From Salinarchaeum sp. (GTDB taxonomy: Archaea > Halobacteriota > Halobacteria > Halobacteriales > QS-1-68-20): a stretch of 32,158 bases of DNA. Shown piece after piece: positions 627 through 26,280 of the stretch; positions within the stretch are counted from its first letter, which is position 1; every line of letters starts with the position of its first letter. A program made the position numbers and the translations under genes. The DNA is taken from contig SKSS01000102.1 of the NCBI GenBank assembly GCA_007122875.1, forward strand, positions 1 through 32,158. Direction: 5' to 3'. The notes under the pieces were generated by a model. That model searched no databases. It was given only the letters and a program-made list of their open reading frames with translations, and was not told the DNA's origin.

Positions 627-648
627 GCTCAGGAGATCGAGGGCGTGA

Positions 649-748
649 CGCGCAGAATCTCGGTCTAGTTCAAATCCACCGAACGTCACGATTCGCCCCT
701 CACGTCCGTTCGTCGCAGAATCGTAGTGGGTTCGGGCGGAGTTGAACC
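649..748 (-). repeat. Degenerate tRNA-Val 3'-end repeat units
   Basis: A 24-bp exact copy (725-748) of the T-arm/acceptor end of tRNA-Val (851-874) lies 126 bp downstream of the gene in its direction of transcription. Beyond it, 698-716 is a 19-bp block identical to two blocks downstream of tRNA-Ser (24911-24929 and 25168-25186). Then 669-678 reads TGGATTTGAA on the minus strand, as it does after tRNA-Ser. The units run straight into the CRISPR array. No protein-coding frame here is credible. The best reading is leftover att-like tRNA duplications or a small dispersed element. Confidence 0.8.
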
Positions 749-5908: not shown

Positions 5909-6354
5909 ACCCCATGTATGCACGCTACAGAGGATAAGTTTGTGGGCAATTTTCAGCTACGTACCAGATACCGACCAGAGGGAAGGGCGCTTTACCGTTC
6001 GGCACCTCTTGGACATGGAGGATTCGACGGGATGGGACCAACGACTCCACTTTCACTTTGCACCCGGTTGAGCCCCGTGGCCTCTGACCTCGTCGTCCGT
6101 TACTTTCAGTTTCACTACGGGGTTTGGTCACGTTTATGGTTCTATCGTTCGTGGTTGCGGTCAGACCGTGAACGCGAGGGGGGAACGATGATTCCGTTAG
6201 CTACTGCTAAATCAAGTACACTTGAAAATAAACAAGGAAAGATTCATTTGGTAGCCAATCGGTACCCTTGGTCGTCACAAATGTCACGAATCGACCGGTC
6301 ACTGGGGAGTGCGGGAACCGACCGTCACGCCCCGTACGTGGGGGGAACGAACCG
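5909..6354. other. 446-bp intergenic region upstream of the RNR gene
   Basis: I find no credible gene here; the frames that cross it lack acidic bias and recognisable motifs. It holds the promoter of the minus-strand gene (5932-5940). Two similar CTTTCACTTT/CTTTCAGTTT stretches lie near 6050 and 6100. The probable RNR control region is at 6212-6236. The stretch is AT-richer than the flanking genes and long for a haloarchaeal intergenic gap. Confidence 0.5.
6212..6236 (+). promoter_or_regulatory. Putative RNR promoter/operator
   Basis: A perfect inverted repeat TCAAGT-ac-ACTTGA (6212-6225) is followed immediately by the A/T-rich AAATAAACAAG, a plausible TATA region. A start near 6255 would leave a leader of about 100 nt before the ATG at 6355. 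A regulator bound at the palindrome would control TBP/TFB access. The regulator is unknown. Confidence 0.4.
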
Positions 6355-9300
6355 ATGAGTCGCGCGGATCTCTCTGCGGAGGAGCTAACCCTGCCGATCA
6401 AGCGGACCGACGGGGAGACCGTAGAAGAGCGGCTGACCGACAACGCCTACTACAACATCCTCCCGGCGCGGTACCTCCAGAAGGACGGGGATGGCGAGGT
6501 CGTCGAGGAACAGGAGGAACTGTTCGAGCGGGTCGCGAAGAACATCGCGCTCGCCGAGGCCGTCTTCGAAGCCGAGCGCCGCGACGTGGAGGTGACGGTC
6601 ACGCCCGACCAGCTCAAGCCCGATCACCCCCGCCGGGACGAACTCGCCGAGGAGGTGTTCGGAGCTGGCGTCACCGCCGATTCGGACGCTGAAACCACGC
6701 TGACCGAGTACAACGTCACGAAGTTCGCGTTCGATACGATCGTCCCGGCGCTTCCCGACGAGGTCCGCGACCATGTGGAGGACATCACCGAGGAGTTTCA
6801 GGAGATGATGGAACATCTCAGCTTCATGCCAAATTCGCCGACGCTCATGAACGCGGGCGGAGAACTCCAGCAGCTCTCGGCGTGCTTCGTAATGAGTCCC
6901 GACGACGACCTCACGGACATCCACGAGACGGCTAAAGAGGCGGCAGAGGTGTTCCAGTGCCTAACCGACGACACGCTGACGTACGTTGAGGACGAGGGAA
7001 TCATCTCGATTGCCGACGTGGAGCCCGGTGACCGGATCGTCCAGCGGAGCGGCGACGATCATCGGACGCGGCGAGTAACAGAGACGCACGCATACGACGA
7101 TGCACCGGTTCGAACGCTGGTCACCGAATGCGGAATCGAGATCACGGGCACACCAACCCACCGACTCTTGATCGACGACGAGTGGACCGAGATCGGAGAC
7201 GCTTCGCCCGGTGACGAACTCACGCTCCGACTCGGGTGGCTCCCGGATACCGATGCGTCTCCACCGCTCAAAACGGTCTCTGCTGGACCACAGTGGGCCG
7301 ACACTCGCGTTGTCGAAAACGAATCGATTGCCACCCTCCACGCTGCCGGTCTCAACGACTACGAGATTGCCGAGGAACTCGACTGCTCCCCGTCGACCGT
7401 TCAGCGTCGTCGCGCCGACGAACTCGGCCTCCCTCCCAACGGTACCGGTGGCCGTCCGGCTGGCCCGAGCTTCGACGGCGAACAGCTTATCGACCGCTAC
7501 GAGCAGGGACACACCGACAGCGAAATCGCGTCCGATCTCGAGGTGAGTACGGCAGCCGTCAGGCGGTATCGCGAAAAACACTCGCTCCAACCGAACGGTG
7601 AAGCGGTCAAAACCGTCACTCAGCCGATGAACCTCACGGCTGATCTTGCGGAACTCGTAGGCATGTGGGTCGGTGACGGCTCGAAGCACGAAAACGGCAT
7701 CCGATTCCATATCGAGCGCGAGGAGACCCTCGAGCACATCGATCGGTTGTCTCGACAGCTGTTCGACACGGGAATCGACTGGACGTGGGCTGGGGGATGC
7801 TACGAGGCGGTCATTCACAGCCACGAGATCAAGCGATGGTGGCTGGAGAACTTCGGAGACGCGAAACCACTTGCCCCAGACGCCTCGGTTCCTGACTGTA
7901 TTTGGAACGCGGGTCACGATCAGATCGGTGCATTCCTTCGGGGACTCTTTTCGACCGATGGGAGCCTCCAGAAGGGGAAGTATCCGCGACTGTGGAGCGC
8001 ATCCGGGCAACTGATCGACGACGTACAGCAGCTACTGCTCGGAATCGGCATTCCGGCGGCACGGTGGGAACTCGATTCCGACGAGCGGGAGTACTACAAC
8101 TTGGGTCCGGTCGGCGAGCAAGGACTCGAGGCGTTCGCCGAACTCGTCGGCTTCGTCGATGCACGGCAGGATCAGTTGTGCGAGACGCTCGAAACGACCT
8201 CGTGTCGGAACCCACAGCGCGGCCGGATCGTCGATGGAGTCGAGTGGAAACAGGAAATCACGTCCATCGAGGACGCCGGTACGGCGACCGTCTACGATGT
8301 GACCGTGGAGGAAGACCACGAGTACGTCGCAAACTCGATCGTCTCGCACAACAGCGGCGGCGGTGTCGGCTATGCGTTCTGGCAGCTTCGCCCCTACGGG
8401 GACGCCGTCGGCAGCACGGGCGGGATCGCCTCCGGGCCGATCACGTTCATGCGCACCTACGATCAGCTCTGTGAGACGATCGCACAGGGCGGCACCCGCC
8501 GGGGGGCACAGATGGCCGTCATGCGGGTCACGCACCCGGACGTGATCCAGTTCATCCACGCGAAAAACAAGGACGTCTCGCTGGCGCACTCGCTGCGGCT
8601 CAACGACCCGGACGACTTCACGCACAACTCCTTCATGGAGGCCTTAGAGGAGGCTCGCGAACTCATCGACGAAGAGGGGCGGGTGCCCGAACACCTCCGG
8701 AACGCCGTCGAGGGCCACCTCTCGAACTTCAACATCTCCGTCGGCGTCACCGACGACTTCATGCAGGCGCTCGAACACGGCGAGGAGTTCACGTTTATCA
8801 ACCCCCGAACCGACGAGCCTCACGTCGCGACCCCCGAGACGAAGGAACTCTACGAGACGTTCGACCTCGGCGAGTACGTCGAGGTCGGGGAGGTGCTCTC
8901 GATCCCCGCCGAGGAACTCTGGAACCGGATCGTCGAGGGCGCACACGAGAACGGCGAACCCGGCGTGATCTACCTCGAACGGGTGAACAAGGAACACTCG
9001 TTCGACGTGGAAGAATATTCCAACCATAGAATTCTTGCAACAAACCCCTGTGGTGAACAGCCGCTCGAAGAGTACGAGGCCTGCAACCTCGGCCACATCA
9101 ACCTCTCGACGGTTGCCGACCTCGACGCGCCGGACTGGCGGGTCTGGAGCGAGCGTCACGCCGCCGAGTACGACTCCACCGAGGAAGCGATCGAGGCGTT
9201 CTTGGCGGAGGCGATCGACTTCGAGGAACTCGATTACCGGATCGAGATGGGAACCCGCTTCCTCGAAAACGTCGTCACGATGTCGGACTTCCCGGTCCCA

Positions 9301-10854
9301 GAAATTGAGCGGACGGTCCGAGAGATGCGCAAGATCGGGCTGGGAATCATGGGGCTGGCCCAGCTGTACGTCCAACTCGGCGTCCAGTACGGCAGCGATC
9401 CGGCCAACGAGATCGCCCGCCAGGTGATGACCCACATCAACCACGGCTCGAAGTGGACCTCCCACGAGTTGGCACAGGAACGCGGGAGTTTCGCGCAGTG
9501 GGACGAGTCGAAGTACGCCGATCCGGTCCGCTACCGCGAGTGGTTCGAACACCAGACCGGCGAGGACGCCGACGACTGGGAAGATGGCTTCCCGATCCGA
9601 AACCACAACACGACGACGATCGCTCCCACGGGGACGACCGGAATGGTCGGAAACACGACGGGCGGCTGTGAGCCGATCTTCAACGTCGCGTACTACAAGA
9701 ACGTCTCCGACGACGTACAGGGCGACGAGATGCTCGTCGAGTTCGACGACTACTTCCTCAGGACGCTTGAAGCCAACAACATCGACGTCGAGGCTGTAAA
9801 GCAGGAGGCACAGGAGCAGATGGCGAACAACGAGTTCGAGGGCGTCGAGTCGCTACCATCCGTGCCGGACTCAATCTCGGAGCTGTTCGTCACGACGAGT
9901 GAGATCACCGCCAAACAGCATGCCGCCGTCCAGTGTGCCTGCCAGGCAGGAGTCGACTCGGCGATTTCGAAGACCGTAAACGCGCCGAACGACTCGACGG
10001 TCGAGGACGCCCGTGAGGTGTTCGAGTACATCTACGAGCACGGCGGTAAGGGCGTCACCTACTACCGCGACGGCACGCGATCGAAGCAGGTGCTCACGAC
10101 CCGCGCACAGAACGCGGAGTTCGCCGAAATGGACGAGGCCGAAGCCGCAGAGATGATCGTCGAACAGATCGAGACGATCTTCGGCGGCTTCGGCGAGTTC
10201 CTCGCCCGTTCTGACGTCAGTGCCGTTGTCGACGATGCGCTCGCCAGCGTGGACACCGGTGGAGCGGACGACAACCTGGCCGTGCGCCCCCGTCCCGACG
10301 TGCTCTACGGCGTGACCCAACGGATCGACACCGGTTACGGAAAGCTCTACGTCAACATCAACGAAGACGAGACGGGCCGGCCGTTCGAACTCTTCGCGAC
10401 GATCGGCAACTCCGGTGGCTTCACCAACTCCTTTACGGAGGCGCTGGCGAAGACGATCTCGACCGCCCTCCGGGCGGGGGTCGATCCCGACGAGATTGCC
10501 GACGAACTCACCGGCATCCGTTCGCCGAAAGTCGCCTGGGACAAGGGCGAGCAGGTCAACTCGATCCCGGATGCGATCGGAACCGCGATGCGTCGCTATC
10601 TGGATGGCGATGTCGAGAAGGCCCATCCCCAGCAACAGCACTTAGACGAGATCGAGGAGGCTGCCGAGCGGGAGACAGACGGCGGGGCGATGTCCGAGGA
10701 AGACGATGCGACGGAATCCGACGACAAGGACGACGACACCCAGGATCTGATCGCCAACGGTGAGAACCCCGAATGCCCCGAGTGCGGCTCACTGACGCTG
10801 TACTACTCGGAGGGCTGTAAGTCGTGTGAATCCTGTGGCTGGTCGGAGTGTTGA
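6355..10854 (+). CDS. nrdJ: Adenosylcobalamin-dependent (class II) ribonucleotide reductase with intein
   Basis: NrdJ reduces ribonucleotides to deoxyribonucleotides using an adenosylcobalamin radical. The precursor has 1499 residues, or 1034 after removal of the 465-residue intein. Visible elements are LSACFV (Cys177), the SGGGVGY loop interrupted by the intein, GGTRRGAQM, the active-site NPCGEQ (Cys899 in the precursor, about 434 mature), CNLGHINLS, PTGTTGMVGNTTGG and a C-terminal Cys-rich tail with CPECG and CxxCxxC (about 1475-1499). The tail probably relays reducing equivalents or binds zinc. The ATG at 6355 is preferred to an upstream TTG (6268). A 48-nt low-GC patch (9010-9057) surrounds NPCGEQ. 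The zinc-finger gene follows 24 nt after the stop. Confidence 0.95.
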   Translation: MSRADLSAEELTLPIKRTDGETVEERLTDNAYYNILPARYLQKDGDGEVVEEQEELFERVAKNIALAEAVFEAERRDVEVTVTPDQLKPDHPRRDELAEEVFGAGVTADSDAETTLTEYNVTKFAFDTIVPALPDEVRDHVEDITEEFQEMMEHLSFMPNSPTLMNAGGELQQLSACFVMSPDDDLTDIHETAKEAAEVFQCLTDDTLTYVEDEGIISIADVEPGDRIVQRSGDDHRTRRVTETHAYDDAPVRTLVTECGIEITGTPTHRLLIDDEWTEIGDASPGDELTLRLGWLPDTDASPPLKTVSAGPQWADTRVVENESIATLHAAGLNDYEIAEELDCSPSTVQRRRADELGLPPNGTGGRPAGPSFDGEQLIDRYEQGHTDSEIASDLEVSTAAVRRYREKHSLQPNGEAVKTVTQPMNLTADLAELVGMWVGDGSKHENGIRFHIEREETLEHIDRLSRQLFDTGIDWTWAGGCYEAVIHSHEIKRWWLENFGDAKPLAPDASVPDCIWNAGHDQIGAFLRGLFSTDGSLQKGKYPRLWSASGQLIDDVQQLLLGIGIPAARWELDSDEREYYNLGPVGEQGLEAFAELVGFVDARQDQLCETLETTSCRNPQRGRIVDGVEWKQEITSIEDAGTATVYDVTVEEDHEYVANSIVSHNSGGGVGYAFWQLRPYGDAVGSTGGIASGPITFMRTYDQLCETIAQGGTRRGAQMAVMRVTHPDVIQFIHAKNKDVSLAHSLRLNDPDDFTHNSFMEALEEARELIDEEGRVPEHLRNAVEGHLSNFNISVGVTDDFMQALEHGEEFTFINPRTDEPHVATPETKELYETFDLGEYVEVGEVLSIPAEELWNRIVEGAHENGEPGVIYLERVNKEHSFDVEEYSNHRILATNPCGEQPLEEYEACNLGHINLSTVADLDAPDWRVWSERHAAEYDSTEEAIEAFLAEAIDFEELDYRIEMGTRFLENVVTMSDFPVPEIERTVREMRKIGLGIMGLAQLYVQLGVQYGSDPANEIARQVMTHINHGSKWTSHELAQERGSFAQWDESKYADPVRYREWFEHQTGEDADDWEDGFPIRNHNTTTIAPTGTTGMVGNTTGGCEPIFNVAYYKNVSDDVQGDEMLVEFDDYFLRTLEANNIDVEAVKQEAQEQMANNEFEGVESLPSVPDSISELFVTTSEITAKQHAAVQCACQAGVDSAISKTVNAPNDSTVEDAREVFEYIYEHGGKGVTYYRDGTRSKQVLTTRAQNAEFAEMDEAEAAEMIVEQIETIFGGFGEFLARSDVSAVVDDALASVDTGGADDNLAVRPRPDVLYGVTQRIDTGYGKLYVNINEDETGRPFELFATIGNSGGFTNSFTEALAKTISTALRAGVDPDEIADELTGIRSPKVAWDKGEQVNSIPDAIGTAMRRYLDGDVEKAHPQQQHLDEIEEAAERETDGGAMSEEDDATESDDKDDDTQDLIANGENPECPECGSLTLYYSEGCKSCESCGWSEC
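6958..8352 (+). mobile_element. Intein with LAGLIDADG endonuclease and two HTH motifs, inside nrdJ
   Basis: The intein starts at Cys (TGC 6958) and ends VSHN (AAC 8350-8352), followed by Ser of SGGGVGY. It therefore interrupts the RNR substrate loop. Its N-terminal CLTDDTLTY and C-terminal VYDVTVEEDHEYVANSIV are standard splicing blocks. LAGLIDADG motifs are LVGMWVGDGS (intein residue about 233) and FLRGLFSTDGS (about 326), with acidic residues kept, so the endonuclease looks intact. Between splicing domain and endonuclease lie two resolvase-like helix-turn-helix segments (about 122-158 and 174-205), probably target-binding modules. The whole frame is open, so splicing should yield functional RNR. 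Confidence 0.95.
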
Positions 10855-14494: not shown

Positions 14495-14637
14495 GCCCGG
14501 GTGGCTTAGCTGGACATAGCGCCGCACTCATAGGGTTTCGAGTTCGGTGACGGCGCGTTTCCCATGTCCGACCGAGGCCCGCCGAGCCTCGAACCTGGGA
14601 CATGCGGAGATCGAGGGTTCGAAGCCCTCCCCGGGCA
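14495..14637 (+). tRNA. Elongator tRNA-Met(CAT) with 69-nt intron
   Basis: The acceptor is GCCCGGG (14495-14501) with CCCGGGC (14630-14636) and discriminator A at 14637. The anticodon stem is CCGCA (14522-14526) with TGCGG (14603-14607), and the anticodon CAT is at 14529-14531. An intron at 14533-14601 follows position 37, the canonical archaeal site, and leaves a 74-nt mature tRNA. Haloarchaeal elongator tRNA-Met genes are known to carry an intron here. The intron ends can pair near the junctions, as the splicing endonuclease requires. A TTAAAGG stretch near 14463 may be its TATA box. Confidence 0.95.
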
Positions 14638-24794: not shown

Positions 24795-24820
24795 CCGGTT
24801 GCGTACGAAAACCGGCGTGA

Positions 24821-24904
24821 GGTGGGGTGGCAGAGCGGCCGATTGCGCCTGCCTTGAGAGCAGGTGGCCGGAAGGCCTCATGGGTTCAAATCCCATCCCC
24901 ACCG
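24821..24904 (+). tRNA. tRNA-Ser(TGA)
   Basis: The acceptor is GGTGGGG (24821-24827) with CCCCACC (24897-24903) and discriminator G. The anticodon arm is CCTGC-CTTGAGA-GCAGG with anticodon TGA. A long variable arm (GGCCGGAAGGCC) marks it as class II, and the T-arm is ATGGG-TTCAAAT-CCCAT. There is no intron. TACTTAGCC near 24787-24795 is a possible TATA box. Its 3' end is repeated twice downstream. Confidence 0.97.
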
Positions 24905-25237
24905 TCGTTTGCGACGAACGGACGTGAGGAGCAACGCGGTTCGGATGGATTTGAATCAGACCGGGCGCACGCAGCGAAGCGAGTACGTCCGGGCGTGGTT
25001 CAAATCCCATCCCCACCGTCGTTCTCACGAACACGAACGGCGAGCGGAGCGAGCCGTTCCGTGAGTGAGGCGACGGAAACGTGGGGAGTTGAAGTAGACG
25101 AGACGCAGCGCGAACGGTAGTGAGCGACCGTCTCGGCGTGGTTCAAATCCCATCCCCACCGTCGTTTGCGACGAACGGACGTGAGGAGCAACGCGGTTCG
25201 GATGGATTTGAATCAGACCGGGCGCACGCAGCGAAGC
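24905..25237 (+). repeat. Tandem tRNA-Ser 3'-end repeat units
   Basis: The T-arm/acceptor end of tRNA-Ser plus 6 nt (24883-24909) is copied exactly at 24997-25023 and 25140-25166. The first copy plus its flank, 24883-24980, is identical over 98 bp to 25140-25237. Each unit contains an inverted T-arm-like motif (GGATTTGAA at 24947, GGAGTTGAA at 25085) that can pair with the next T-arm copy. The middle unit differs in sequence but keeps a 7-bp inner stem (CGAGACG 25099-25105 with CGTCTCG 25129-25135). No credible protein gene is present. Confidence 0.88.
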
Positions 25238-25281
25238 ACGTGGTCGTCCGCAGTCGTTTTGCCCCTACGTTGCGAGGCGGC

Positions 25282-26280
25282 TCAGAGCGCGTCGTACTCC
25301 AGCCGGAACGTCTCTAGGATCGCCGCGAGAACGCCGATGGCGATCGGGCCGACGAACAGCCCCACGAATCCGAGGGTGTAGACGCCGCCGAAGACGCCGA
25401 TGAGGATGATCCCGGGGTTGAGCCGGGCCTGTCGATCGATCACGAGCGGACGGGCGTAGTAGTCGATCATACTGACGACCGTCAGGCCGTAGATCCCGAG
25501 CAGGACACCGGACGCAGTCTCGCCGATGAGGATGAGATAGACCGCCGCTGGGGCCCATACGAGAAACGCGCCGATGATCGGGAGAAACGCGAGCAGGAAC
25601 ATCACGAACGTCCAGAACACCACGTTCGGAATCCCGGCGAGGTACAGTCCAAACCCGGCGACGACGGCCTGGACGAGCGCCGCGAACGCGTGTCCGATCA
25701 CGGCCCCCCACGTGATCCGGTGGATCCTGGTGAACAGGCGGTCGGTGACCCGCTCCGGCAGCGGAATCGTCTCTCGAAGCCACGCGACAAAGGAGCGACC
25801 GTCCCGGAGGAGGTAGAAGACGAGAAACAACAACAGCGCCAATCCGATCGTGAATTCGAGGACCATCGCGAGGATTCCCGTTACGTCGTTGAACAGCGTC
25901 GCGGCGATCAACTCACCCACCTCCGTCAGGAAATCGACCGCTTCCAACTCGACTTCGAGACCGGTGAACGCCTCGATTTGCTCTTCGACGGTCGCGATGT
26001 CGAGACCGACATCACCGGCCGCGATCGCCTGGAGGTCACGGACGAACACTCGGATGACGTAGACGACGGGCATGACGACCAGCACGAGTGCGCCAGCCAT
26101 CAGCACGAGCGCGGAACCCTGTGATCCGATCCGCTCCTCGAGACGGACGTGGAGCGGATGCAACACGTAGGCGAAAATTACGGCGGCGATTACGTACTCG
26201 AGAAACGGCAGGAGGATCACGAATGATAACAGGGCTGCCAGTACGAGCGCGACCAACAGGAACGCCTGACCGCGATTCAT
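25282..26280 (-). CDS. AI-2E-family (PF01594) membrane permease
   Basis: The 332-residue protein has about seven hydrophobic segments. The C-terminal block (FLPIIGAFLVWAPAAVYLIL and GIILIGVFGGVYTLGFVGLF) matches the AI-2E transporter family. The family includes exporters of small molecules and Na+/H+ antiporters, so the cargo is unknown; an AI-2 role is unlikely in an archaeon. The ATG at 26280 is chosen by the TATA box GATATATGAC (minus, 26312-26303) 27 nt upstream. The gene ends 45 bp from the tRNA-Ser repeat units. Confidence 0.9.
   Translation of the reverse strand: MNRGQAFLLVALVLAALLSFVILLPFLEYVIAAVIFAYVLHPLHVRLEERIGSQGSALVLMAGALVLVVMPVVYVIRVFVRDLQAIAAGDVGLDIATVEEQIEAFTGLEVELEAVDFLTEVGELIAATLFNDVTGILAMVLEFTIGLALLLFLVFYLLRDGRSFVAWLRETIPLPERVTDRLFTRIHRITWGAVIGHAFAALVQAVVAGFGLYLAGIPNVVFWTFVMFLLAFLPIIGAFLVWAPAAVYLILIGETASGVLLGIYGLTVVSMIDYYARPLVIDRQARLNPGIILIGVFGGVYTLGFVGLFVGPIAIGVLAAILETFRLEYDAL

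Follow-up and report, generated by a model that had tools for sequence, protein, structure and literature searches.

The window analysed here, a 32,158-nt stretch that makes up contig 28 of a haloarchaeal draft genome (1.9 Mb, about 60% complete), carries a tRNA-Ser(TGA) gene on the forward strand at 24821–24904 (ARAGORN and Rfam RF00005), which is directly followed by an array of repeat units on the same strand. Between tail copies, each unit has the order h1, T(-), h2, T(+), where h1 and h2 are hairpins, T(-) is an inverted half T-arm, and T(+) is an exact 21-nt copy of the 3ʹ end of the host tRNA. The template of these copies, T(+)0, is the last 21 nt of the gene itself (GTTCAAATCCCATCCCCACCG, 24884–24904), and the same sequence recurs without change at 24998–25018 (T(+)1) and 25141–25161 (T(+)2), both on the forward strand. 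A first-pass annotation of the sequence had already pointed to an exact host tail copy in the units behind tRNA-Ser; the three identical copies confirm it, and the feature proved to be far more widespread.

Unit 1 opens with h1 (24905–24943; GACGAAC GGAC GTGAGGA), whose C(GGAC)G loop is flanked by tandem G.A pairs, the motif class of 158 of the 176 h1 folds. It continues with T(-) (24944–24958), recognised by its pairing with T(+)1, and h2 (24959–24997), in which a stem of CCGGGCG and CGTCCGG carries the apex GCGAAGC. Unit 2 follows the same plan with other h1 and h2 sequences: h1 lies at 25019–25082 (apex CGAGCGGAGCGAG), T(-) at 25083–25094, and h2 at 25095–25140, the last including the perfect 7-bp stem of 25099–25105 (CGAGACG) with 25129–25135 (CGTCTCG) exactly as first described. 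The truncated unit 3 (25162–25237) consists of h1, T(-), and the start of h2, and repeats the sequence of unit 1. All of these elements lie on the forward strand. As the 98-nt stretch 24883–24980 recurs exactly at 25140–25237, units 1 and 3 stem from a recent duplication. The arms of unit 1 proposed earlier (24947–24968 and 24986–25007) do pair, but the hand count of 16 matches plus two G-U pairs has to be corrected to 15 Watson-Crick pairs and one G-U pair. Compared with dinucleotide shuffles, the unit-1 hairpin (24944–25012) had a z-score of −5.1 for the RNA fold and the unit-2 hairpin (25083–25155) a z-score of −4.2 for the DNA fold, and neither value was reached by any shuffle. Units 1 and 2 were both matched by a covariance model of T(-)-h2-T(+) that was based on 26 units, at 24947–25007 (E 1.5e-13) and 25085–25150 (E 1.7e-11), respectively. 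An Rfam sX4 match at 24816–24953 was rejected; it was driven by the tRNA part and lay far under the family threshold.

The second array of the window lies on the reverse strand behind tRNA-Val(GAC) (852–926). Its complete unit (727–852) ends in an exact copy of the tRNA-Val tail, and the T(-) of this unit, AGTTGAA, fits the unusual T-loop of the host, TTCAACT. A second Val unit (640–726, reverse strand) is truncated and directly adjoined by a CRISPR array of the CRISPR-DR24 type (1–630). Elsewhere in the window, an Rfam RF00005 match at 14495–14637 marks a tRNA with an intron of about 65 nt, probably tRNA-Trp, that ARAGORN had missed, and reading by eye of the translation of a long ribonucleotide-reductase-like open reading frame (6268–10854, 1528 aa) revealed an apparent intein.

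In almost every haloarchaeon, roughly one tRNA gene in two is followed by such an array. Among tRNAs with at least 250 nt of downstream sequence, 12 of the 21 in the genome of the window had a tail copy within 200 nt, and the same was found for 12/26 tRNAs in a second genome (G012) and 10/23 in Haloferax prahovense (G413). Within the order, almost every genome sampled had the T(-)...T(+) pattern; of about 312 genomes from the rest of the phylum, just 2 did, and the reversed pattern gave 0 matches. The covariance model, a search that the first-pass annotation had proposed, yielded 23, 28, 28, and 11 matches in four whole genomes and, across the order, matches in 141 of 146 haloarchaeal genomes (1–34 each). 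All 76 matches compared in three genomes (G000, G003, and G012) lay 3ʹ of a tRNA: 69 were found on the same strand as a listed tRNA, at most 600 nt downstream of it, and the remaining 7, two of them with an inverted hairpin, also adjoined a tRNA. The array units start right after the discriminator base, almost always on the tRNA strand. As for units without a tRNA, the 21 apparent orphans, not each of which was resolved, include non-haloarchaeal matches, contig edges, and tRNAs missed by ARAGORN. A query with the tRNA-Leu(TAA) array matched 53/53 genomes of one genus. In two low-GC genomes (G010 and G129, 48% GC), there was neither a tail copy nor a T(-) behind the 31 tRNAs sampled, and no match to the covariance model; the G129 congeners G212 and G298 had 13 and 5 matches. 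Units were also seen at tRNAs of megaplasmids, in Natrinema thermotolerans (L385) and Natronorubrum bangense (L386), the tRNA-Glu-like gene of the former seeming to contain an insert or intron.

The structure of the arrays is selected or maintained, and its stems covary; what had been a hint from two units, namely changed sequence with kept pairing on tRNA 3ʹ ends, is upheld by strong covariation over many copies. In an anchored test of h1, with the stem register set only by the inner GA motif, the Watson-Crick fraction at stem positions 1–5 was 0.61–0.91 versus shuffled maxima of 0.41–0.68, and several pair types occurred at each position. In alignment A1, 97.7% of the cells paired and double changes were found at 11 of 19 pairs. 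Its covariation score was 0.292, compared to 0.099 when shuffled (0/500 shuffles) and at most 0.055 when the partner was slid, a comparison somewhat inflated by the derivation of the structure from A1 itself, a weakness of which the anchored test is free. Irregularities were kept as well, with tandem G.A pairs in 124 of 176 h2 in addition to the h1 noted above, and with T.T and C.A mismatches recurring in h2. The tRNA-sense strand folds T(-) onto T(+) around h2. T(-) complements T(+) imperfectly and shows occasional G-U at position 54; the acceptor part of T(+) has no pairing partner but is conserved all the same.

Tail copies track the tRNA that they stand behind. They were exact over 20 nt in 148 of 192 cases, and T(+) carried the base of its own host at 1062 of 1086 positions that differ from the same isoacceptor elsewhere, these being pairwise counts and not independent events, on copies found by similarity to the host tail. 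Early counts of host specificity on pattern-selected loci were partly pattern-biased, and unbiased genomes and ortholog sets were preferred where possible. Among 26 tRNA-Leu(TAA) orthologs of one genus, T(+) was 97.5% identical and the right flank 47%. The units, about 110 nt in length, behave as blocks: whole units are duplicated or change position, and hairpin types are exchanged between species. Related species had h1 in common and h2 swapped, the best match of a species' second unit was often the first unit of a different species (L361 unit 2 and L381 unit 1, 0.91), and one locus (L378) held two identical tandem units. The unit boundaries coincide with the tail copies, and therefore the tRNA is intact after each gain or loss. 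In one genus, the GA-mismatch stem of h1 has become fully complementary, a form that looks like a template-switch event. At two loci (L393 and L394), the h2 that separates T(-) from a decayed T(+) was inverted, as though recombination between inverted tail halves had flipped it. Spacings between tail copies were up to 200 nt in 102 cases versus 8 larger ones, most of the latter being further tRNA copies. No genes were found within units, which discounts gene cassettes. In eight genomes, the PF00589 genes listed were scattered, with none beside arrays when array coordinates were compared by eye. The Y1 transposase (PF01797) was absent from two array-rich genomes (G004 and G022), and IS200/IS605 hairpins were accordingly rejected as the required agent. 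The earlier idea of a small mobile element that targets tRNA T-arms is borne out only in part: block turnover at tail boundaries and the recurrence of hairpin types at different tRNAs agree with it, but the units have no gene, no integrase adjoins them, and Y1 is dispensable.

Whether the structure would form in RNA or in DNA had been left open in the first-pass annotation. Pairing, loop, and one-strand statistics look like those of single-stranded DNA of the tRNA-sense strand, although the closest counterpart, RtT of E. coli, is described as RNA. At stem positions 1–5, G-T and A-C occurred 19 versus 18 times in h1 and 10 versus 28 times in h2; in neighbouring tRNA acceptor stems the counts were 34 versus 1. 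The d(GCGNAGC) triloops are known for special stability. Most apices of the arrays were C(GNA)G; tetraloops of the C(GNNA)G and C(GNAB)G kinds also occurred, but hardly any GNRA or UNCG loops. In h2, cGNAg formed 103 of 194 apices; the opposite strand had 3 of these and shuffled sequences 4, and GNRA accounted for 3. According to PMC8373063, which cites Nakano et al. 2002, selection for stable DNA tetraloops had yielded the cGNNAg and cGNABg motifs. GNA-type loops and tandem G.A pairs were seen on the tRNA-sense strand only, and in a set of 60 the top strand folded better than the bottom strand in 46 and worse in 9. RNA energies, however, also favour the tRNA-sense strand, and hairpin repair by template switching could equally produce perfect stems free of G-T intermediates, whatever the function. 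T-runs were fewer inside arrays than in the background and more frequent after the last tail copy, and in about a quarter of the arrays a T-run stood directly behind the tRNA, before h1; the position of terminators does not separate the RNA and DNA readings.

Tandem repeats of a tRNA tail with an inverted tail are already known from RtT (Rfam RF00391, rttR) in the tyrT/tyrV operon of E. coli. Like the haloarchaeal arrays, RtT consists of tandem repeats right behind a tRNA with exact tRNA 3ʹ ends, and the inverted half of its tail (GGGGAAGGAT) forms a stem with the tail copy that encloses an inner hairpin. This hairpin is of the tandem-GA type with a C(GCCA)G apex; in E. coli K-12 MG1655 (L425, 1285900–1287400) it reads CTCGAGC-GCCA-GCGAGAG, and the spacing is 178 nt. 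No sequence homology was detectable: RF00391 gave no match in window 24800–25300 at E up to 5, whereas the E. coli locus scored 134–138 bits. RtT units of 178 nt include CCA, compared to about 110 nt for haloarchaeal units, and RtT is annotated behind one tRNA-Tyr gene, while roughly half of all haloarchaeal tRNAs have an array, each fitted to its own host. The arrays are not a member of RtT, with which they have the plan in common and not the sequence.

Other known systems resemble the arrays in part. The attC site of integrons is an imperfect inverted repeat that folds into a hairpin on one strand, keeps its mismatches, has a variable terminal part, and occurs in tandem arrays. The haloarchaeal units likewise have a computed one-strand fold with conserved mismatches, but they carry no gene cassettes, have no linked IntI, and are anchored at tRNA tails. 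Their direct repeats of a tRNA 3ʹ end from the T-loop recall the tRNA attachment sites of tyrosine recombinases, from which they differ in being gene-less units of about 110 nt with an inverted partner, conserved hairpins, and concerted evolution; unlike an integrated element or prophage scar, they have no integrase or element genes between the tail repeats. With REP/BIME and IS200/IS605 they have strand-specific DNA hairpins in common, yet they were always linked to tRNAs in the genomes checked and do not depend on a Y1 transposase.

Our preferred reading, held tentatively and at somewhat less than even chance, is that the units are tRNA-tail cassettes with a strand-specific fold, turned over by DNA-level recombination between tail copies. 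Recombination between identical copies would turn units over in DNA, and each such event would spare the tRNA and keep the copies identical to it. Folding of the single strand may rebuild a double-stranded T-loop core, T(-):T(+), which, by analogy with attC, might be recognised on one strand by a putative recombinase or another DNA-binding protein, and h1 and h2 might act as stable DNA hairpins that mark the strand. This reading is favoured by the covariation, the DNA-like pairing and loops, the strand bias, the concerted evolution, the turnover, and the location at tRNA 3ʹ ends, and also by the absence of arrays from two low-GC genomes with their presence in congeners of one. It is weakened by the lack of a linked recombinase gene and of any gene in the units, by the imperfect T(-) and the unpaired but conserved acceptor part of T(+), and by the description of RtT as RNA; moreover, general homologous recombination in polyploid cells could yield equal turnover, and template switching could perfect the stems. 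The arrays might instead stem from site-specific integration, with T(+) as the attachment core of T-loop-type integrases and the units as relics or protective dummy sites. The extent of T(+) matches the 22-nt tRNA duplication that flanks a Haloquadratum prophage (PMC3119063), but we consider this origin very improbable in view of the tight unit size, the lack of adjoining integrases and of similar arrays in phage records, and the conserved hairpins, which would not be expected.

A structured trailer RNA, co-transcribed with the tRNA and cut at the tail copies by the tRNA 3ʹ-processing machinery, is somewhat unlikely but stays a serious rival, since RtT, the closest known relative in plan, is annotated as RNA and likewise has a T(-)/T(+) closing stem as well as a tandem-GA hairpin. 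In this model, the freed hairpin RNAs, or the trailer, would influence how tRNAs mature or would serve as small RNAs, a proposal already made for RtT. The start right behind the discriminator base on the tRNA strand, the sense-strand RNA energies, the scarcity of T-runs up to the last tail copy, and the G-U at T(-) position 54 agree with such an RNA. Stems without G-U preference, the near absence of RNA-type tetraloops, the T-run between tRNA and h1 in about a quarter of the arrays, and the two low-GC genomes that manage without arrays speak against it. The hairpins could also be functionless palindromes at tRNA genes, where polymerase template switching together with unequal recombination would create them and preserve their perfect form. 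Both stem arms change with no excess of G-T or A-C intermediates, a GA-mismatch stem became fully complementary in one genus, perfect tandem duplicates exist, and the absence from low-GC genomes is wholesale, all of which would suit by-products. However, the persistence of tandem G.A in most h1 and h2, the kept T.T and C.A mismatches, the presence of the tRNA-Leu(TAA) array throughout a genus, and a T(+) that stays exact beside a diverged right flank make this explanation distinctly unlikely.

No description of haloarchaeal arrays was found in the open-licence papers searched, and a family that spans a clade and is matched to each tRNA seems to be new to that literature. The broader proposal of a new archaeal and bacterial class of elements, in which a single-stranded DNA fold would make a recombination site from the host tRNA 3ʹ end and tails would be continually exchanged, with RtT as a relative or a parallel invention, is rather doubtful at present. 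Nearly all haloarchaea have this structured element, fitted to each tRNA, downstream of roughly half of their tRNA genes, and it links the orphan RtT repeats of E. coli to a much larger set whose function is testable in Haloferax. The arrays also illustrate clearly how folding of a single strand can be encoded in a genome, and the array-free genomes with array-bearing congeners offer a natural comparison for the responsible factor.

A viral origin was rejected: the pattern matches in IMG/VR were not of the haloarchaeal type, being mostly tRNA fragments, chance matches, and Bifidobacterium-like palindromes, and phage records gave only tRNA-Ser matches. Bifidobacterium, as well as viral contigs close to it in GC content, had near-perfect tRNA-tail palindromes of the form GGATTTGAACCGTGGACCTCTGG...CCAGAGGTCCACGGTTCAAATCC (L306, L315, L324, L327, L345, L352, L107, and L109). 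Outside haloarchaea, units similar to those of the arrays were seen behind tRNA-Ser on two Woesearchaeota contigs, one (L132) with an exact tail copy and the other (L093) with an imperfect copy and a hairpin of the GA/GNA type.
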